A stretch of DNA of 64,000 nucleotides from Lamprocystis purpurea DSM 4197 (GTDB taxonomy: Bacteria > Pseudomonadota > Gammaproteobacteria > Chromatiales > Chromatiaceae). Position numbers and translations under genes: made by a program. Location of the stretch: assembly GCF_000379525.1 (NCBI RefSeq), contig NZ_KB902510.1, positions 1 through 64,000 on the forward strand. Direction: 5' to 3'. Under the pieces are notes generated by a model. That model was not told where the DNA came from. It searched no databases and saw nothing but the letters and a program-made list of their open reading frames with translations. Every line of letters begins with the position of its first letter. Position 1 is the first letter of the stretch. Below, one piece after another: positions 51,607 to 61,241 of the stretch.

Positions 51607-52049
51607 TGGGACTCCTTGGAGTAGGTGTTGCGTGGCCGCGGCAGGCGTCGTGGCAGAGTATTCGAGAGACTCACCGGATCGTCAATTTTTCAAATGATTC
51701 GGTCAGCGCGTAGGATGGGCAGAGCGCGAGCGATGCCCATCCGGCCACCGCGATGCGGTGCCGCGGTGACCTCGAACGCTGCGGCTGCACGCCCGGCCCC
51801 ATCGCGGCGGGACGCCGCTCCCACGGGGTCGCTGCGCGACTTTTCCGGTAATGCCTCGACCTCCAGTTGCGGACAGTCCGTCGCTGGCCGGAGCGATGAT
51901 CAAGGCCGTCGCGCCGGATGCCCATCACATCGGTCTGGAGCGCAAGCAGGCGCCGGTGTACTCTCATCAGTGCCCCTACCCCGCTGCCGTTCGGGGACCT
52001 GGGTGCCGCGGCGCCTCATCGGCAACTTACGCAGAGGAGCACTCATCCA
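51607..52049. repeat. Divergent intergenic region with a REP-like dispersed repeat copy
   Basis: About 51751-51909 matches 58709-58857: cgcggtgacctcgaacgctg, then catcgcggcgggacgccgct, then cacggggtcg. Only one arm of the palindrome seen at 58686-58787 remains intact here. The region also holds the promoters of the surface protein (minus) and the vWA operon (plus), not individually identified. Confidence 0.7.
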
Positions 52050-54095
52050 ATGAGGTCTTTCCTAACCCGCGTGCTGCCGGTCGCGGCGGCGTTGGCCCTG
52101 CTGTGCGGACCCGCGGTGACGGCGGCCCCGGCAGCAACCGCCGACCGGACCGCCCTGTCGATTCCGGATAAGCCGGGGCTCTATCAGCGGGTGCTGACGC
52201 GGCCCGATACGCGATTGCTCACGCTGCCTGGCGGCGCTGCCGCGCCCGGTCCGGCGCTGCCGGCCTTGTCGGTGCTCTATGTCTTTGACCGGCGTGCCGT
52301 CCAGGGAAAGGACTGGATCGAGGTCGGCGCCGCGGCGGACGCGGCTCAGGGCTGGATCGCGGCGGCCCAGGCGATCGACTGGCGCCAGACGCTGACGCTG
52401 GCCTTTACGCGCACCTCCAATCGTGATCCGGCGCTGTTCTTTCGCGATCATGACCGGCTCACGCACCTGCTGGAGGCCGAGGACCTGGTGCCGCAGGTCG
52501 ACCGCCTGCGCGCCGAGGTCAAGACCGGACGCTTCCCGACGGACTTTCCGGTGATTGCCAAAGAGCCGGATACCTATATCGACCCGAACGAGCAGTTCTA
52601 TCTGCTGCCGATCCTCGCCTTCGAGCCGGTGTACCTGCAGAGCGGCCATGAGACCATGCTGCTCAAGGTGGCCGCGGTGACCCTGCAGGCGGGGGAGCAG
52701 GACCTGCTGGGCACGGACACCGCCGCGAAGCCAACGCCCAAACCGGCGCGCCAACCCAACGCCAAGCCGGCCGATAAGACGGCCGCGTCGCGCCCCGCCG
52801 GCTATCGCGCCGGTGTGGTCTTCGTGATCGACAGCACCACCAGCATGGGCCCCTACATCGACCGCACCCGCACCGCGGTCCGCCGCATCTATGACAAATT
52901 GCGGGGCTCGACGCTGGGCGAACGACTGAGCTTCGGCCTGGTCGCCTTCCGGGACAACGTCGAGGCGGCACCCGGACTCGAGTATGTCAGCCGGGTCGCG
53001 GCGTCGCTGGAGGACGGCCGCGACCCGGCGACCTTCCAGTCCAAGGTGGCCGGCGTCAAGGAGGCGACCGTCTCCAGCAAGGGGTTCAACGAGGACGCCT
53101 ACGCCGGCATCCAGGACGCCCTGGAGCGCATCGACTGGAGTGGCTTCGACGCCCGCTATATCGTGCTGATCACCGACGCCGGCGCGCGCGATGCCAACGA
53201 CCCGCTGGGCCGCACCGGACTGTCCGCCGAGCGCCTGCGCCTGCTCGCCCAGGAAAAAGACCAGTCCGGGGGCGGCGGCAAGATCGCCATCGCCGTGCTG
53301 CACCTGCTGACCCGCGAGGGCCGTCAGACCCACGAGGGCGCGACCCGGCAATATCGGGAACTGAGCCGCTGGGGCGACGCGGGCGATCTCTATTTCCCGG
53401 TCGAGGGCGGCGCGGTCGAGGCGTTCGGCACCCAGGTGGACACCCTCGCCGACGCCCTGCTGCGGCAACTCGAGAGCGCGGCGTCCGGGCGTCTGATCGA
53501 AGTGCCGGAGGGACCCAAGGTCGATCCGGTCGAGCGCAAGACCGCACTGGTCGGGCGCGCCATGCAACTGGCCTATCTGGGCCGGGAGACCGGCAGCCGG
53601 GCACCGCGGCTGATCGAGGCCTGGGTGACCGATCGGGATTTGATCGACCCGACCCAGAAGACGCTGGAGGTGCGGGTGATGCTCACCAAGAATCAGTTGA
53701 GCAACCTGCAGGAGACCCTGGAGGCCATCCTCGCCGCCGGTGAACGCACGCACATGAACGCCAAGGATTTCTTCGACCAGTTGCGCGGCGCCGCGGCGGC
53801 GCTGGCGCGCGACCCCGACAAGGTCAGTCAGGTCCAGGTGAAGCGGCTCGCGGATGTCGGTCTGGTGGGGGCCTGGCTGGACGGGCTGCCCTACACCAGT
53901 CAGATCATGAATCTGACCCCGGAACGCTGGCTCGCCCGCTCCTACGCGGAACAGCAAGAGGTGCTGGACGTGATCGATGAGAAGATCCGGCTCTACCGTA
54001 AGGTCCACGACGAGACCGACCGGTGGATCAACCTGGCCCCGGCGGCCCCGCCGGGAGAAGCAGTCACCACCCTGCCGCTCGATAGCCTGCCCTGA
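52050..54095 (+). CDS. Secreted von Willebrand factor A protein, PpkA periplasmic-domain-like
   Basis: The protein has 681 residues. A signal peptide covers about 1-31 (VAAALALLCGPAVTAAPA). The N-terminal part (LYQRVLTRPDTRL, LTLAFTRTSNRDPALFF) resembles the periplasmic region of the type VI secretion kinase PpkA. The vWA domain starts at about 254; its metal site is DSTTS (261-265), with VLITDAGARDAND later. A C-terminal helical region follows (SQIMNLTPERWL). There is no kinase domain and no transmembrane helix after the signal. It overlaps tagT by one base (TGATG) and leads a TagTSRQ-like operon, suggesting a periplasmic sensor. Confidence 0.85.
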   Translation: MRSFLTRVLPVAAALALLCGPAVTAAPAATADRTALSIPDKPGLYQRVLTRPDTRLLTLPGGAAAPGPALPALSVLYVFDRRAVQGKDWIEVGAAADAAQGWIAAAQAIDWRQTLTLAFTRTSNRDPALFFRDHDRLTHLLEAEDLVPQVDRLRAEVKTGRFPTDFPVIAKEPDTYIDPNEQFYLLPILAFEPVYLQSGHETMLLKVAAVTLQAGEQDLLGTDTAAKPTPKPARQPNAKPADKTAASRPAGYRAGVVFVIDSTTSMGPYIDRTRTAVRRIYDKLRGSTLGERLSFGLVAFRDNVEAAPGLEYVSRVAASLEDGRDPATFQSKVAGVKEATVSSKGFNEDAYAGIQDALERIDWSGFDARYIVLITDAGARDANDPLGRTGLSAERLRLLAQEKDQSGGGGKIAIAVLHLLTREGRQTHEGATRQYRELSRWGDAGDLYFPVEGGAVEAFGTQVDTLADALLRQLESAASGRLIEVPEGPKVDPVERKTALVGRAMQLAYLGRETGSRAPRLIEAWVTDRDLIDPTQKTLEVRVMLTKNQLSNLQETLEAILAAGERTHMNAKDFFDQLRGAAAALARDPDKVSQVQVKRLADVGLVGAWLDGLPYTSQIMNLTPERWLARSYAEQQEVLDVIDEKIRLYRKVHDETDRWINLAPAAPPGEAVTTLPLDSLP

Positions 54096-54823
54096 TGGCG
54101 CCCTCCCCGCCCGTCTACCTGTGTCAGGGGCTGATCAAGCGCCGCGTCGGCGGCGGGACCGCCTTCGAACTGCTGGTGCCCGAGCTGCGTATCGCGCCCG
54201 GCGAAGTCGTGGTGTTGCAGGGGGCGAGCGGGAGCGGCAAGAGCACCCTGCTCGACCTGTTGGCACTGGCCCTGCGCCCGGATCGGGCCGGCATCTTCAG
54301 CTTTCGCCCGGAACATCGCGCCGCGACCGATCTGTGGCGGCTGTGGCAGCGCGACGATCTGGACGGACTCGGCCAGTTGCGCGGGACCCATATCGGCTAT
54401 GTGCTGCAGACCGGCGGGCTCTTGTCCTTCCTCACCGCACGGGAGAACATCGCCCTCTCCTGCCGCTTGCTGGGGCGTGATCCCGGTGGTTTGATCGAAC
54501 GCTTGGCGGAGCGCCTGGACATTAGCGCGCAGCTCGACAAACGTCCGGGCCAACTCTCGGTGGGCGAACGCCAGCGGGTGGCCATCGCCCGCGCGCTGGC
54601 CCATCGGCCGGGGGTGGTGCTGGCGGACGAGCCGACCGCCTCGGTCGACCCGCTCAACGCGGCACGCATTCTGGATCTGTTCTTGGATCTGGTGCGCCAG
54701 TCGGGCGCCTGCGCGGTGATCGCCAGCCATGATTGGCGGCCGGAGCGACTGCCGGGCGTGCGGGTGCTGGAGCACCGCATCGAGCGTGATGGGGACCTGA
54801 CCCGGTCCTTGTTCTGGGGCTAA
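54095..54823 (+). CDS. tagT: ABC transporter ATP-binding protein, TagT-like
   Basis: The 242-residue protein has Walker A QGASGSGKST (42-51), the Q loop YVLQTGGLL, the signature LSVGERQRVAIARAL, and Walker B VVLADEPTAS. It is of the LolD/MacB type that pairs with FtsX-like permeases. In Pseudomonas TagT forms with TagS a complex that activates PpkA; I infer that role from gene order. The tag name rests mainly on the neighbourhood. Confidence 0.85.
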   Translation: MAPSPPVYLCQGLIKRRVGGGTAFELLVPELRIAPGEVVVLQGASGSGKSTLLDLLALALRPDRAGIFSFRPEHRAATDLWRLWQRDDLDGLGQLRGTHIGYVLQTGGLLSFLTARENIALSCRLLGRDPGGLIERLAERLDISAQLDKRPGQLSVGERQRVAIARALAHRPGVVLADEPTASVDPLNAARILDLFLDLVRQSGACAVIASHDWRPERLPGVRVLEHRIERDGDLTRSLFWG

Positions 54824-54880
54824 ACACCAATAAGATGTCACCGCACATGAAACCTTATTCCGGTTTTAGTTTGAATCACG

Positions 54881-56116
54881 ATGCGCGCCACGCCTGAAAT
54901 TCTGCGACTGGCCTATCGGGATTTTGCCCATGAGCGGCGGATCTCGCTGTGCTTCGTGCTGGCGCTGATGGCCGTCCTGGCCCCGCTGCTGATCCTGTTC
55001 GGACTCAAGTTCGGTCTGGTGGACACTCTGGCCCAGCGCCTGGTCGAGTCGCCGGTCAATCGCGAGATCCAGCCGCTGGGGAGTCGCGACTATGATCAGG
55101 CCTGGTTCGATCGCATCGGCGCCCGCCCGGATGTCGCCTTTCTGATCCCCAATACCAGGCGCATCGCCGCCAGCCTGACCCGCCTGCTGAACACCGCCAA
55201 CGGGCAGGACCTGCGAGTCGTCTCCATGATCCCTACCGGGACCGGCGATCCACTCCTCACATCGGGGTTGGCCGGTGCGGCTGGCCCCGCGGTGCCGACC
55301 GGCCTGACGGAACTGGTGCTCTCGGCCGCTGCCGCCCGCAAACTGGGCGCGGCGGCGGGCGACCGGCTGGTCGCGCGGGTCGACCGCCGCCGCGACGAGC
55401 GGGATGAGCAGGCCCTGTGGGAGGTGACGGTGACCGGCATCCTGCCGGATGCGGCGATGGCCGAGGAGGCGGCCCTGGTTCCGCTGCCCCTGCTGGTGGC
55501 GACCGAGGATTATCGGGACGGCCTGGCTGTCCCGGCGCTGGGCTGGAAGGGCGCGCCAGTCCGCGGCGGGCCGCGTGAGTTCGCGCGCTTTCGCCTCTAT
55601 GCGGTGAGCATCTACGCGGTGGCCGGACTCGCCGCCGATCTGGCCGCGGACGGCGTGGAGGTCCGCACCCAGGTCACCGAGATCGCCGGCATGCAGGCGC
55701 TGGACCGCAACCTCAGCCGCGTGTTCTGGCTGATCGCCATGATCGGCACCCTGGGGTTCCTCGCCTCGCTGGCGGCCAATCTGCTGGCCAACGTGGAGCG
55801 CAAACGCCGCGAACTGGCGGTGGTGCGGCTGATCGGGTTTCCGACCAGGAGCCTGGTCCTGTTCCCGGTAGTCCAGGCCCTGCTGGTCGCCCTGCTGGGG
55901 GCGGTGGCCGCGCTGGCGGTTTACCTGCCGGTGGCCACGGCCTTGAACATCTGGTTCGCCGACAGCCTCCAGCATGACGAGTCGATCTGCCGATTGCTGC
56001 CGACGCATCTCCTGATCGCGCTCGCGGCGACCCTGCTGGGGGCCGCCGGTTCGGCGGCCTGGGCCGGCTGGCGGGCGGCGCGCATCGAACCTGCCGAGGG
56101 TTTACGTGAGGTCTGA
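54881..56116 (+). CDS. tagS: FtsX-like ABC permease, TagS-like
   Basis: The 411-residue protein has an N-terminal transmembrane helix (ISLCFVLALMAVLAPLLILFG), a periplasmic domain of about 200 residues, and three C-terminal helices (VFWLIAMIGTLGFLASLAANLL, VVQALLVALLGAVAALAVYLP, LIALAATLLGAAGSAAWAGW). The motif ERKRRELAVVRLIGF is typical of FtsX/MacB-type permeases. It is the membrane partner of the ATPase at 54095 and probably mechanically transmits rather than transports. Confidence 0.83.
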   Translation: MRATPEILRLAYRDFAHERRISLCFVLALMAVLAPLLILFGLKFGLVDTLAQRLVESPVNREIQPLGSRDYDQAWFDRIGARPDVAFLIPNTRRIAASLTRLLNTANGQDLRVVSMIPTGTGDPLLTSGLAGAAGPAVPTGLTELVLSAAAARKLGAAAGDRLVARVDRRRDERDEQALWEVTVTGILPDAAMAEEAALVPLPLLVATEDYRDGLAVPALGWKGAPVRGGPREFARFRLYAVSIYAVAGLAADLAADGVEVRTQVTEIAGMQALDRNLSRVFWLIAMIGTLGFLASLAANLLANVERKRRELAVVRLIGFPTRSLVLFPVVQALLVALLGAVAALAVYLPVATALNIWFADSLQHDESICRLLPTHLLIALAATLLGAAGSAAWAGWRAARIEPAEGLREV

Positions 56117-56128
56117 ATTCAACCGCAA

Positions 56129-57808
56129 ATGAACGCAATCATCTTCCTGATCACCACCGCGGCCTGCTGCCTGATGATGGGTCCGGCCCGTGCCGACACA
56201 CCCGCACCGGCCATCACCTGGCCCGAGAAACTCTATAACCCGACGCCCGCCGCGGGGGATCTGATCCTGCCCCTGGCCTGCGGCGGCGCCATGGTCTTTC
56301 GACCGGTGGAGATTCCCGGCGGGAACCTGCTCGATGACCGCCAGGTGGAACTCGGCCAGACCGACGCTGCACGCGGCTACAAGGAGGGCCGGCGGCTCAG
56401 CCACCTGGCCGGCGCCTTCAGCATGGGCACGGCCGCCGCGCGCCGCTACTACATCGCCAAGTACGAGACCACCCGCGACCAGTACGCCGCACTCACCGCC
56501 GACACCTGCCCTCAACCGACGATGCGCGGGCGTCTGCCGATGACCGACGTGAGTTGGTTCGACGCGGTGGATTTCACCCGCCGCACGACCGAATGGCTGC
56601 TCACCAAGGCCCCCGCCGCCCTGCCGCGGGAAGAGCAGGAACCCGGCTTCCTGCGCCTGCCGACCGAGGAGGAATGGGAGTTCGCGACCCGCGGCGGCCT
56701 CGCGGTGGATGACACGGACTTTCTGGCGACCGTCTTCCCCATGCCGGACGGCGATCTGGCGCGTTATGCCTGGCACGAGAGCACCGGTTCCGCCGCCGGT
56801 GAACTGCACCCGGTGGGACTGCTCAAGCCCAACCCGCTGGGCCTGTATGACGTGCTCGGCAACGCGGCCGAAATGACCCTGGCGCCCTTCCATCTGGACC
56901 GCCGCGGCCGTCCCCATGGTCAGCCCGGCGGTTTCGTCAGCCGCGGCGGTGATGTGTTCACCCCGGCGAGCCAGATCGGCAGCGCCGTGCGCCAGGAGCA
57001 CAACTATTTCAATGCCACCACCGGCCGCGCCAAGGCACTCGACAGCCTGGGCTTCCGACTGGTGGTCACGGCCCCGGTCATCGTCTCGGCGGCACGTCTG
57101 GATGCCATCAAGGAGTCCTGGTCCGAGTTACCGAGCCTCACCGGTGACGTGCGAGTCGACTCGGACAAGGCGCTGGCCGAGTTGCAGGAGGTTGCACGCC
57201 AATCGCAGGACGACGCCCTGCGAACCCGGCTGGAACTGATTCAGCGCAATGTCGAACAGGCGCACGCGGGGCTCAACGAGGCCCGCGCCCGCACGGTACG
57301 CGCCCTGCTGCGGATGGGCGCCTTTATGGGCAAGCGGGTGGTGACTGACGGCAAACGCGCCGAGGTGCTGCAAGGGTTGATGGGGCTGGCACAGAGCAAC
57401 TTCGACACCTTCGCCAAGCAGGCTCAGGGGTCGCGGGACGGACCCAAGCTGATCGCCGAAGCGCGTGACGCGCTCGCCGAAAAGATGACCAAGTGGCAGG
57501 GGATGCTCGCCGAGATCGAGCAAGGCATGGCCAGCAGCCTGTCCTATTATGGGGACATGGTCGTGAACGTAGGGCGGGACTATGGGGCGGCAGAGGTCGG
57601 AGCGGAACTCAAGGTGGTCGATGAAGAGCTCAAGACCAAGGACAATGCCTATTTGATCCCCTATGCCGACCTGTTCGCCCGCCACCTGGACGCCTATCGC
57701 CAGGCCGGGGCCGCGGACAAGGCGACCTGGCAGCAGGATTTGCTGCAAATCGAACCCACGGTATCTCCGGGCACACCGGCGGGCGGATCGGCAGGACAAC
57801 AACCATGA
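56129..57808 (+). CDS. tagR: Formylglycine-generating-enzyme-like protein, TagR-like
   Basis: The 559-residue exported protein has a signal peptide (ITTAACCLMMGPARA). The SUMF1/FGE-sulfatase fold spans about 55-310: YYIAKYETTRDQYAAL, PMTDVSWFDAVDFTRRT, FLRLPTEEEWEFATRGG, NPLGLYDVLGNAAEMTL and LGFRLVV. The catalytic cysteines of true FGE enzymes are not evident, so it is likely a binding scaffold. About 320-520 is helical, coiled-coil-like. In Pseudomonas TagR promotes PpkA activation. It overlaps tagQ as ATGA. Confidence 0.85.
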   Translation: MNAIIFLITTAACCLMMGPARADTPAPAITWPEKLYNPTPAAGDLILPLACGGAMVFRPVEIPGGNLLDDRQVELGQTDAARGYKEGRRLSHLAGAFSMGTAAARRYYIAKYETTRDQYAALTADTCPQPTMRGRLPMTDVSWFDAVDFTRRTTEWLLTKAPAALPREEQEPGFLRLPTEEEWEFATRGGLAVDDTDFLATVFPMPDGDLARYAWHESTGSAAGELHPVGLLKPNPLGLYDVLGNAAEMTLAPFHLDRRGRPHGQPGGFVSRGGDVFTPASQIGSAVRQEHNYFNATTGRAKALDSLGFRLVVTAPVIVSAARLDAIKESWSELPSLTGDVRVDSDKALAELQEVARQSQDDALRTRLELIQRNVEQAHAGLNEARARTVRALLRMGAFMGKRVVTDGKRAEVLQGLMGLAQSNFDTFAKQAQGSRDGPKLIAEARDALAEKMTKWQGMLAEIEQGMASSLSYYGDMVVNVGRDYGAAEVGAELKVVDEELKTKDNAYLIPYADLFARHLDAYRQAGAADKATWQQDLLQIEPTVSPGTPAGGSAGQQP

Positions 57809-58575
57809 TGCTCCAAACACTCGGGCGCGGCGCCATCCTGATGGCAACCACTCTGCTGCTCATCGCCTGCACCGCCGGCCTGGAAACCCAAACGGAGCGT
57901 CCGCCGGCCGAGGTTGGTGGACGCTTTTCGATCGGGGGACTCTCGTTTGGCGGCAAACCCGACACCTTCGGTTACGAAGGTGAACTCAGCCCGCAGGAGG
58001 CGGCGCTGCGCGAACAGGCAAAGAAGTTCGATCGCACCGTGTGGCAAGGGATGCTGATCGGCGCCGTGGTCGGCACTGCGGTCGGCGTTGCGGCCGGTGG
58101 TGATACCGAGGATGCCGTCGGCGGCGCCATCATCGGTGCCAGCGTCGGGGCCATCGCGGGTATCTATGTCGCCCACATGCAGCAACGCTATGCCAACAAG
58201 GAAGATCAGCTCGATGCGATGATCACGGACGTACGCAACTCCAATCGCGAAACCGAAACCCTGATCGCCGATGTGAAGACCGTCATCGCGGAGGACCGGC
58301 GTCGGTTGGCGTCCGTCCAGCAGCGGGTGGCCCAGGGTCAAGCCGGCGCCAAGGAGTTGGAGCAGGAGCGCGGCCGGGTGTGGGGCAATCGCCGGGTGGT
58401 GGAAAAGGCCGCGGTGGGCGGGCAGGATCAATACCGGATGTTCGAGGGCGCCATCCAGCGGTTCCAGAAGAACAACCCCGGGGTCAAGACCTCCGGTTTC
58501 GAGCAGGCACTCACGAGCTATCGCAACAATCTCGCGACACTCGACCGCCTGGCAGCGGGCATGGCGAAGGCCTGA
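57805..58575 (+). CDS. tagQ: Lipoprotein, TagQ-like
   Basis: The 256-residue protein has a lipoprotein signal ending LLIAC (Cys22), then a linker, a glycine-zipper segment (GAVVGTAVGVAAGG, GAIIGASVGAIAG) and a long helical, coiled-coil C-terminal half (ADVKTVIAEDRRRLASVQQR). TagQ in Pseudomonas is an outer-membrane lipoprotein that localises TagR; position and type match. It is the last gene of the operon. Confidence 0.82.
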   Translation: MMLQTLGRGAILMATTLLLIACTAGLETQTERPPAEVGGRFSIGGLSFGGKPDTFGYEGELSPQEAALREQAKKFDRTVWQGMLIGAVVGTAVGVAAGGDTEDAVGGAIIGASVGAIAGIYVAHMQQRYANKEDQLDAMITDVRNSNRETETLIADVKTVIAEDRRRLASVQQRVAQGQAGAKELEQERGRVWGNRRVVEKAAVGGQDQYRMFEGAIQRFQKNNPGVKTSGFEQALTSYRNNLATLDRLAAGMAKA

Positions 58576-58685: not shown

Positions 58686-58787
58686 CCCCGTGGGAGCGGC
58701 GTCCCGCCGCGATGCGGTACCGCGGTGACCTCGAACGCTGCGGTGACACGCCCGGCCTCATCGCGGCGGGACGCCGCTCCCACGGGG
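58686..58787. repeat. REP-like palindrome with 29-bp arms
   Basis: Perfect 29-bp arms at 58686-58714 and 58759-58787 (core gtgggagcggcgtcccgccg) flank a 44-base spacer. The unit extends right to about 58857 and matches 51751-51909. Common in GC-rich gammaproteobacterial intergenic regions. Confidence 0.9.
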
Positions 58788-58930
58788 TCGCCGCGCGACT
58801 TTCACGGTAACGCCTCGATCCGGTGGGCGACCGATGATCACGGCCGTGTTCCGGCCACGCGATCAATGTAGTACGGTGAGGCACAGACACGGGTGGCGAA
58901 TGCGCCCGAACGCGGAGTCTGGAAAGAACG

Positions 58931-59053: not shown

Positions 59054-59385
59054 TTCCGGGTCTGAGCCAAGCCGGTGCGGCGGATACGCCCGTTTGAGCG
59101 CAATTCGCCACCAGTGTCAGGCACAAACCGCATCGTTCGCGGCCGGGGGATGCCGCCGGGTTGGATGCGCTGCTGCTTTCGCCTTGGGCGGCGGGCGTTG
59201 CCGTGGCCGACGATTCGGAGATGCAGCGGCTTGCCGCCGGCGACTATCATAGCCTCGCCTCTGTACACCGTAAGAAAACTGAAGTGCCGGTCTGCGCTTC
59301 CTTCCGTTTGGTTTCCAACATCCCCCTGATTCGGGTAAATTAATAAGCAGTTTTGCCCAGACTTCAACGACAATCAAGGACAGGA

Positions 59386-60624
59386 ATGACCTACGACCGT
59401 TCGCAGCGCCGCCAGACGGAGGAAGAGTTGCGCCGCCTGGGCCACACTCACGCCGTGCTCTCCCGCTGCAATCGCAGTCTCGCCCGCGCCCTGGACGAAC
59501 GCGCGCTCCTTACTGCATTCTGCGCCAACTTGGTCGAGGAGGAAGGCTACGGTTTCGCGTGGGTCGGCTACGCCGGGGAAGGTCGCGGGGCACTGCTGCG
59601 CTTGGCGGCCCATGCGGGTCAGGGCGACGCGGCCTTCGCCGCCGCGGTCCTGGCCTGCGCCAACGCCGGCGACCGACGCAGTGCCTGCCGCGTCGCCTGC
59701 GAGGTCGGGGCACCGGTCATCCTGCGCGACCTGTCCGTCCGCTCTGCCCTTGCCCCCTGGGCCGACACGGCTATAGGCCAGGGCTATCGCGCCATGATCG
59801 CACTGCCCCTGCGCGCCGACGGGGCGGCCTTCGGCAACTTCAGCATCTTCGCGGACACGCCGGACGTCTTCGACCCGCCCGAGGTGGCCTTGCTCGCCGA
59901 GTTAGCCGATGACCTCGCCTTCGGTATCCAGACGGTACGCACCCGCGACGCCCAGGCCCAGGCGGTGCGCCGCCTGCGCAACGATGCCGAACGGGAGGCC
60001 CGCGGACACCTGGCGGCAACGCTGCACGATGGGGTCGGCCAGACCATGCAGGCGCTCAACCTGGGCCTCAAGCAGGCGAGGGCGCTGGCCGAGCGCGAAG
60101 AGACGGTGCCGGTCGCGCTCTTGGATCAACTGATCGATGAGGCCGGAGCGGCTTTGCGGGAACTGCGCGCCGTCAGTTGCGAACTCCGACCCTTGTTCCT
60201 GGAGCGCCTGTCGCTGCTCGATGCCATCCGCCATCAGTGCAACGAGACCGCCCAGCGCACCGGCATCAGTATCCAGGTCAGCGCCGCCGACTGCTCCTTC
60301 ACCCTGGACGACCAGGTCAAGGAACAATGCTTCCTCGCCTTCCGCGAGGCCTTATCGAACGCCGTGCGCCACGCCGCCGCCAGCCGCATCGACGTGCTCC
60401 TGCGGGTGCGTATGAACGACCGGCTGATCCTGGCCATCGGCGACAACGGCGTCGGCTTCGACACCCACCGCACCGGCGCAGATCCCGCGGGGCTCGGCTT
60501 ATGCATGATCCAGGAGCGCGCCGCCGCCGTCCTCGGCCGCTCGTGCGTGCGCAGCAGCCCCAGCAGGGGAACCATCGTGCGTATCTGCGTCCCCTTGACC
60601 AAGGACACCATCCTGTGTCCATAG
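59386..60624 (+). CDS. GAF-domain sensor histidine kinase (NarL/HisKA_3 type)
   Basis: The 412-residue protein has no transmembrane helix. A GAF domain (about 35-185) is followed by a HisKA_3 dimerisation helix with His214 (ATLHDGVGQTMQAL), and a HATPase domain with AFREALSNAVRHAA, IGDNGVGFDT and GLGLCMIQERA. I start at ATG 59386 (MTYDRSQ) because AAGGACAGGA lies directly upstream; a start at 59353 is less likely. Its 3' end overlaps the response regulator by 10 bases. The signal is unknown; cytoplasmic location suggests a soluble ligand. Confidence 0.92.
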   Translation: MTYDRSQRRQTEEELRRLGHTHAVLSRCNRSLARALDERALLTAFCANLVEEEGYGFAWVGYAGEGRGALLRLAAHAGQGDAAFAAAVLACANAGDRRSACRVACEVGAPVILRDLSVRSALAPWADTAIGQGYRAMIALPLRADGAAFGNFSIFADTPDVFDPPEVALLAELADDLAFGIQTVRTRDAQAQAVRRLRNDAEREARGHLAATLHDGVGQTMQALNLGLKQARALAEREETVPVALLDQLIDEAGAALRELRAVSCELRPLFLERLSLLDAIRHQCNETAQRTGISIQVSAADCSFTLDDQVKEQCFLAFREALSNAVRHAAASRIDVLLRVRMNDRLILAIGDNGVGFDTHRTGADPAGLGLCMIQERAAAVLGRSCVRSSPSRGTIVRICVPLTKDTILCP

Positions 60625-61241
60625 GTGTCATCCTCGCCGATGACCACGCCATCGTCCGCCAGGGCCTCGCCGCCCTGCTCCAGGCCGAGCCGGACATCGT
60701 CCTGCTCGGCTTGGCGGCCGATGGCGCGGCCGCCTGGAGCATGATCGCGACCCACCAACCGGACATCGCCATCCTGGACCTGTCCATGCCCCAGGCCACC
60801 GGCATCGAGATCACCCGCCGGGTCGAGGCCGCCGCGCTCGACACCCGCTGCCTGCTGCTCACCATGCACGATGACCCCGCCGCCGCGCTGGAGGCCCAAG
60901 CGGCGGGCGCCGCCGGCTACATCCTCAAGGACAACTCCTTCGAGGATCTGGTGTTGGCGGTGCGCAGCATCGCCGCCGGCGGGACCTTCGTCACCCCCTC
61001 CATCCGCGCCAAGCTCCGCGCCCTGCAGCGCAACGGCCAAGGGTCCATCGCCTTGTCGAGCCGGGAACGGGAAGTGATCCGCCTGGTCGCCCTGGGCCAT
61101 AGCAGCAAGGAGATCGCCCGAGTCCTGGACATCAGTCCGCGCACCGTGGATACCTACCGTAACCGACTGATGCACAAGCTTAGGCTACACTCCGTGGCGG
61201 ATGTGGTGCGGTATGCGGTGCAGGGGGGGATGCTGGGGTGA
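60615..61241 (+). CDS. LuxR/NarL-type response regulator
   Basis: The 208-residue protein starts with GTG at 60615 (VSIGVILADDHAIVRQ). The receiver phosphoacceptor is Asp55 in IAILDLSMPQ; the switch Thr and Lys lie in LLLTMHDD and GYILKDN. The C-terminal LuxR helix-turn-helix reads LSSREREVIRLVALGHSSKEIA and SPRTVDTYRNRLMHKL. It is encoded with the histidine kinase in one overlapping operon. Targets cannot be identified here. Confidence 0.94.
   Translation: MSIGVILADDHAIVRQGLAALLQAEPDIVLLGLAADGAAAWSMIATHQPDIAILDLSMPQATGIEITRRVEAAALDTRCLLLTMHDDPAAALEAQAAGAAGYILKDNSFEDLVLAVRSIAAGGTFVTPSIRAKLRALQRNGQGSIALSSREREVIRLVALGHSSKEIARVLDISPRTVDTYRNRLMHKLRLHSVADVVRYAVQGGMLG

Follow-up and report, generated by a model that had tools for sequence, protein, structure and literature searches.

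The DNA analyzed here, referred to as the window, comprises bases 1-64,000 of a 64,717-bp contig (C147) of Lamprocystis purpurea DSM 4197, whose genome of 6.9 Mb is distributed over 211 contigs. Between positions 52050 and 58575 it carries five complete genes on the plus strand, encoding a vWA protein followed by TagT-, TagS-, TagR- and TagQ-like proteins (Table 1). The vWA protein is the counterpart of the periplasmic half of PpkA, the kinase of the threonine-phosphorylation pathway of the type VI secretion system (T6SS). It begins with a signal peptide, recognized by eye, and continues with a beta-rich N-terminal region, a vWA domain at about residues 254-478 and a C-terminal domain. A structure model built from 29 sequences (mean predicted local distance difference test score of 80) adopts a vWA fold that Foldseek relates to integrin-type vWA/I domains, and a Pfam search gives no kinase match in this protein. 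The Pfam matches within the module are vWA (sub-threshold), ABC_tran, FtsX, FGE-sulfatase and glycine zipper. Searching solved structures by sequence returns FGE-like proteins for TagR and nothing useful for the vWA protein or TagQ.

Table 1. Module genes and flanking repeats, in window coordinates.
Feature	Position	Strand	Remarks
Secreted vWA protein, 681 aa	52050..54095	+	ATG at 52050; corresponds to PpkA periplasmic half
TagT-like ABC ATPase	54095..54823	+	Sequence shows Walker A and Walker B motifs and the signature
TagS-like FtsX-type permease	54881..56116	+	Pfam, blastp
TagR-like secreted protein, FGE-sulfatase (SUMF1-like) domain	56129..57808	+	Pfam, blastp
TagQ-like lipoprotein	57805..58575	+	LIAC lipobox seen in sequence; glycine zipper
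Direct repeat, left copy, 115 nt	51745..51859	+	Brackets module
Direct repeat, right copy, 115 nt	58704..58818	+	91% identical; 6,959 bp from left copy

An earlier, sequence-only reading of the window described the module as a secreted, kinase-less vWA protein resembling the PpkA periplasmic region, followed by four Tag-like genes in the order T, S, R, Q and joined by overlaps. The description of the vWA protein holds, both for its lack of a kinase and for the resemblance (644 columns aligned at 38% identity, E 1e-140). TagT, TagS and TagR are clear homologues in the order described, whereas the homology of TagQ is weak. The overlaps are real at two of the four junctions (TGATG at vWA/TagT and ATGA at TagR/TagQ), whereas TagT and TagS are separated by 57 bp and TagS and TagR by 12 bp. 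The same reading saw no structural genes of type VI secretion in the window, and profiles agree: 29 of them, covering the T6SS core, Srf, kinases and others, give no match in the 351 window open reading frames (ORFs) outside the five module genes, and no SrfB or SrfC lies beside the module. All nine comparisons of module genes with two relatives (one relative only for TagQ) give dN/dS, the ratio of non-synonymous to synonymous substitution rates, of 0.09-0.21, as expected under purifying selection. The nearest named relatives found for the module are metagenome-assembled genomes (MAGs), whose vWA proteins are identical to that of the window at 97% (labelled Lamprocystis), 93% (Chromatiaceae ppb02) and 76 and 81% (Thiodictyon).

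The reference for this module is the fused arrangement found in six Pseudomonas-type genomes of one family, probably Pseudomonadaceae, in which PppA and TagF precede a single ORF encoding kinase plus vWA, and T, S, R and Q follow. Using blastp against three of these six loci, we find that the vWA protein of the window matches the periplasmic portion of fused PpkA (e.g., residues 385-992) at 38-39% identity (E 1e-138 to 1e-140). TagT aligns at 50-54% identity, TagS at 44-46% and TagR at about 29%, the TagR alignments spanning 567-596 columns with E values between 1e-53 and 2e-52. The window module has neither the single kinase-transmembrane (TM)-vWA protein of these clusters nor a location inside a T6SS cluster.

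The machinery that such a module would control is nevertheless present in the genome. TssB lies on contig C146 and TssK on contig C160, neither being the window contig. Profiles including TagF_N and Pkinase place on C160 a PP2C (PppA) gene, TagF, TssM-L-K-J, an FHA protein with a T6SS_FHA_C domain (Fha) and, divergent from the FHA gene, a kinase of 550 aa. In this kinase a single TM helix is predicted at 328-346 and an alpha solenoid, which we call the Sel1-like tail, is confidently modeled at about 386-547; there is no vWA domain. The earlier suggestion that a separate kinase could recruit the module thus gains a concrete candidate beside fha, tssJKLM, tagF and pppA. We also looked for a kinase with its own vWA domain, which the earlier reading had named as grounds for refutation, and rejected this possibility: no frame matches both domains at the 16 kinase places, at the 18 PF00092 places or in the four vWA-family members of the genome.

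The tail offers a further link between the two proteins. A profile built from the C-terminal 150 residues of ten C160-type kinases was searched against the other 7,339 ORFs (minimum length 60 aa, six frames) from 80 loci and gives 33 matches. Of these, 32 directly precede a vWA gene in the same orientation; the remaining one is a TagR C-terminus. The ends of these tail ORFs lie -900 to +300 bp from the vWA gene, the ORF starts being over-extended. The upstream tail proteins include the Tistrella kinase, short TM-Sel1 proteins at loci with only vWA-T-S, and the protein encoded between SrfC and vWA. A tail partner is present at 37 of the 74 vWA loci, five training loci included, and at E 1e-3 the tail profile does not find the tail in the six fused loci. 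Among the L. purpurea loci analyzed, the tail occurs in the C160 kinase, alone among the 16 kinase places (1.5-kb flank each), and in the upstream proteins of contigs C186 and C153, each of which adjoins its own vWA gene. No vWA gene lies beside the C160 kinase and no tail gene beside the window vWA; the fourth vWA gene, on C207, is at a contig edge. Because the C186 and C153 tails are already paired, the C160 kinase and the window vWA remain as the unmatched pair.

In relatives, the two halves are found side by side. Of 146 genomes of the family, 71 have the vWA protein, 53 have TssB and 12 match the C160-type kinase strongly, at 300 bits or above. This kinase co-occurs with TssB (11 of 12 kinase genomes versus 42 of 134 others, p 6e-5) and with the vWA protein (12 of 12 versus 59 of 134, p 1e-4). 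By coordinates, the kinase is just upstream of vWA in seven family genomes, two of which (G800 and G834) are known from coordinates alone; in the sequence-inspected subset, the run is kinase-vWA-T-S-R in five of five, with TagQ also present in four. Two apparent fusions, at G136 (926-aa frame) and G759 (1050-aa frame), were rejected as long open frames only, since profiles show separate upstream genes. On plasmid pTM1 of Tistrella mobilis, a separate tailed kinase is followed by vWA-T-S-R, all inside one annotated T6SS cluster, whereas the window genome has the halves apart; this split is visible in the annotation, and we met no discussion of it in the literature searched. At locus L111 the module lies inside the T6SS cluster. 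Kinases of the split type (e.g., at L044, 12738-14390) read HRDLSPDN or HRDISPDN in the catalytic loop, with Ser (Ala in Tistrella) replacing the Lys that is usual in Ser/Thr kinases.

Within the genus, five of six genomes have both vWA and kinase, whereas the sixth (G822) lacks both, as well as TssB. Kinase and Fha genes are divergent in L. purpurea, G850, G779 and G885, while in the fifth genome, G870, the kinase copy begins at a contig edge; the vWA gene is elsewhere. In two Thiodictyon MAGs (L018 in G885 and L019 in G779), the vWA gene lies downstream of VgrG, and at L018 also downstream of the ClpV end. We further note that vWA-TagT occurs on pTs485, a 485-kb replicon of Candidatus Thiodictyon syntrophicum (L172, L110), and that the G850 contig with vWA-TagT (C3) also carries TssB, about 290 kb away.

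A vWA tree places the window protein among these kinase-associated forms. The tree has 63 of 74 rows and a midpoint root; L016, L102, L104, L105, L107, L108, L109, L136, L169, L170 and L172 were left out, some as fragments and some as duplicates or near-duplicates (L016 is a 97% relative), and L084 is labelled Srf though its contig ends before any SrfB/C could show. The window protein groups with L017, nested successively with other T6SS-type rows (98/89), the kinase-adjacent L180 (100/99) and L181-L184 (100/100); next outward come Tistrella (92/67) and the Robiginitomaculum locus L020 (96/94). The fused clade has one origin (100/100). Forms linked to Srf (four label changes), orphan forms (two changes) and the C153-like and C207-like forms are placed elsewhere; the exceptions are four long-branched rows, three of them Srf and one orphan, that adjoin the T6SS group (84/91). 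Placement is uncertain for the long branches L111, L103, L114 and L106. Because the window vWA groups with kinase-adjacent rows, the kinase and vWA were most likely ancestral neighbors that parted in this genus.

Taken together, these observations make it very probable that the window module is the input half, periplasmic and outer-membrane, of the T6SS threonine-phosphorylation pathway, with PpkA split into two proteins: the vWA protein matches the PpkA periplasmic half, a tailed kinase lacking vWA exists in the genome, and kinase and vWA are neighbors in relatives. Judged from sequence, the module most likely signals in trans to the C160 kinase. Envelope damage would be sensed through TagQ/TagR/TagST, and the secreted vWA protein would dock on the kinase tail, which is predicted to be periplasmic. 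Docking would cluster or activate the kinase, leading to phosphorylation of Fha (or TssL) and T6SS assembly, and PppA and TagF would oppose the kinase output. The split module most likely works as in P. aeruginosa, with the link non-covalent. For that organism, two papers report that TagQ and TagR are required for TssK assembly while TagST contribute (PMC6657622), and that outer-membrane damage acts via TagQRST-PpkA, probably through PpkA dimerization (PMC11881912). Compared with the P. aeruginosa H1-T6SS pathway (TagQRST-PpkA-PppA-Fha), for which Pseudomonas-type genomes rather than P. aeruginosa itself were used, the L. purpurea system shares a homologous vWA region followed, in the same order, by homologues of TagT, TagS and TagR and by a weakly similar TagQ candidate, as well as Fha, PppA, TagF and a T6SS in the genome. 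It differs in that vWA is a separate secreted protein and the kinase, on another contig, has a Sel1-like tail replacing vWA.

Several observations weigh against this interpretation. The kinase and the window vWA are on different contigs. The catalytic loop of the C160 kinase is HRDLSPDN and lacks the lysine that Ser/Thr kinases usually carry at this position, so its activity is assumed. The kinase domain also matches models of the anti-phage PD-T4-6 kinase strongly (E 1.5e-53), and the assignment to T6SS therefore rests on gene context, not on the domain. The window TagQ has no blastp match to the Pseudomonas-type TagQ in three fused clusters and scores 28.9 bits with NCBIfam NF041250, far under the cut-off of 300; a TagQ profile built without the fused genomes does hit the right place in all six fused clusters, at a weak 48-55 bits. 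The ORFs of the tail search come mostly from stretches chosen around vWA genes, and 37 of the 74 vWA loci have no tail partner at E 1e-3, including the six fused loci, the window with its close relatives, several Srf loci whose protein is recognizably similar but divergent, and fragments. G770, the single kinase genome of the 12 that has no TssB match, carries the full kinase-vWA-T-S-R-Q run. At the orthologous locus of G779, G850 and G870, only vWA-TagT is detected, TagS, R and Q being absent from the stretch and not sought elsewhere, which implies that the module decays or is not indispensable. Finally, the fused clade is sister to the split clade at 94/86, which is under the starred support level and depends on the midpoint root.

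The surroundings of the module may bear on how it came to its present place. The 115-nt direct repeat that brackets it may have carried it away from its kinase. The 26-base core of this repeat occurs only twice within the 64-kb window, and a 17-base core recurs on other contigs of this genome and, in inverted orientation, next to the right copy. A promoter and terminator scan of the module was uninformative. Downstream, at 59353-61241, an ORF resembling a GAF-type sensor histidine kinase is followed by a response-regulator-like ORF, both recognized by eye.

The bracketing repeat, together with the separation from the kinase and the reduction to vWA-TagT in three genus relatives, would fit a module that is a relocated, decaying copy with no current function. 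We consider this very unlikely, since all five window genes are intact and their dN/dS values are low. An unlikely, though somewhat less remote, alternative is an orphan envelope sensor with no tie to T6SS, having another output or acting only through its ABC machine; vWA-TagT-TagS cassettes that lack T6SS presumably work in this way. Its appeal comes from the wider family: among 369 genomes of the class, 26 have vWA, 70 have TssB and seven have both, which is no more than expected (p 0.30) and leaves 19 of the 26 vWA genomes lacking TssB, and in the family TssB is present in 30 of the 71 vWA genomes (p 0.17). We therefore reject T6SS dependence for the vWA family as a whole. Many loci, moreover, consist of a TM-Sel1 protein plus vWA-T-S with no other profile match. 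The window vWA, however, belongs to the T6SS-kinase clade, apart from the orphan clade (18 rows, 100/99), and a tail-bearing kinase is present in the genome. For the same reason, signalling by another route, which the sequence-only reading had entertained, finds no support for the window module.

The window TagR and TagQ could additionally serve the paralogous vWA systems on C186, C153 and C207 in trans, a proposal that is compatible with a split PpkA and that we judge improbable. No TagR lies beside vWA at C153 and C207, and no other full-length match to the window TagR occurs in the genome; the three next-best matches span only about residues 8-351. However, C186 ends at a contig edge with a TagR-like fragment on the other strand, a TagQ-like ORF lies near the C153 vWA, and other Srf loci have TagR within the same operon. 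An export machine of the ordinary LolCDE/MacAB/FtsEX type, equipped with accessory proteins and having no signalling role, seems a highly improbable reading of the module: TagT does score against DevA, FtsE and LolD models and TagS against FtsX, but these NCBIfam scores are far under their cut-offs, and gene order and homology fit the TagT-S-R-Q of PpkA clusters. A role in anti-phage defense was rejected as well. At E 0.01, vWA, TagS, TagR, TagQ, SrfB and SrfC have no PADLOC match, and we read the matches of TagT (assorted ATPase models) and of the C160 kinase (PD-T4-6, over the kinase domain) as shared domains.

Other members of the family occur with different partners. SrfB and SrfC adjoin the module at twelve profile-scanned loci (L021, L082, L083, L112, L114, L133-L137, L173 and L186). 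One of them is on C186 of L. purpurea itself (L021, G000:C186:14000-26726), where SrfB-SrfC-tail protein-vWA-TagT-TagS form an operon that ends at the contig edge; for paralogues such as this one, other signalling routes are plausible. The Srf-associated operons (Klebsiella plasmids, Cereibacter and C186) share with the split PpkA module the vWA-T-S(-R) order, some also with TagQ, and an upstream neighbor of vWA whose product bears the tail in several operons, as the split kinase does. They differ in that SrfB and SrfC replace the kinase and T6SS, and they mostly fall on separate tree branches. The vWA protein is found in 125 plasmid records, 114 of them from Klebsiella, and both Klebsiella plasmid records that we inspected (L112, L209) are of the Srf type, with a SrfB-SrfC-X-vWA-TagT-TagS-TagR operon. 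Many gammaproteobacterial loci (L085-L101 and others) instead carry a four-gene TM-Sel1/vWA/TagT/TagS cassette, and in most copies the profile scan recognizes no TagR, TagQ, Srf or kinase-domain gene beside it. A 2013 study (PMC3608642) already reports such genes in Deltaproteobacteria: host-associated members had srf with tagQ, a gene named ppkA and mostly tagRST, and only one had T6SS machinery.

We regard the split PpkA as a genuine and instructive variation on a known pathway rather than as a new category of system, and the fused Pseudomonas form is one variant of the PpkA arrangement. We found no description of a split PpkA or of its Sel1-tailed partner in the literature searched, an incomplete search that is no proof of absence. 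A parallel is PpkA-RtkS of Serratia marcescens (PMC6082577), in which a separate periplasmic protein binds the periplasmic domain of the T6SS kinase and supports its activity; TagQRST is absent from this system, and RtkS is described as having no readily identifiable structural homologies. The same paper states that TagQRST is restricted to Pseudomonas, which our finding argues against. It also affects annotation, as at least one gene labelled serine/threonine protein kinase, the 655-aa vWA gene of CP061360.1 (Klebsiella), is of the split type and of kinase-less length.

The natural split separates sensor from kinase and singles out one contact, that of vWA on the Sel1 tail, and it suggests an input, open to testing, for SrfB-SrfC, genes that are still poorly understood. 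More broadly, we tentatively propose, as a possibility somewhat short of probable, that vWA-TagT-TagS plus a Sel1-tailed membrane protein is a general envelope-sensing cassette with an exchangeable output (a T6SS kinase, SrfB-SrfC or none recognized). The PpkA of Pseudomonas would then be a fusion of sensor and kinase that dropped the tail, and SrfBC would be a response to envelope damage.

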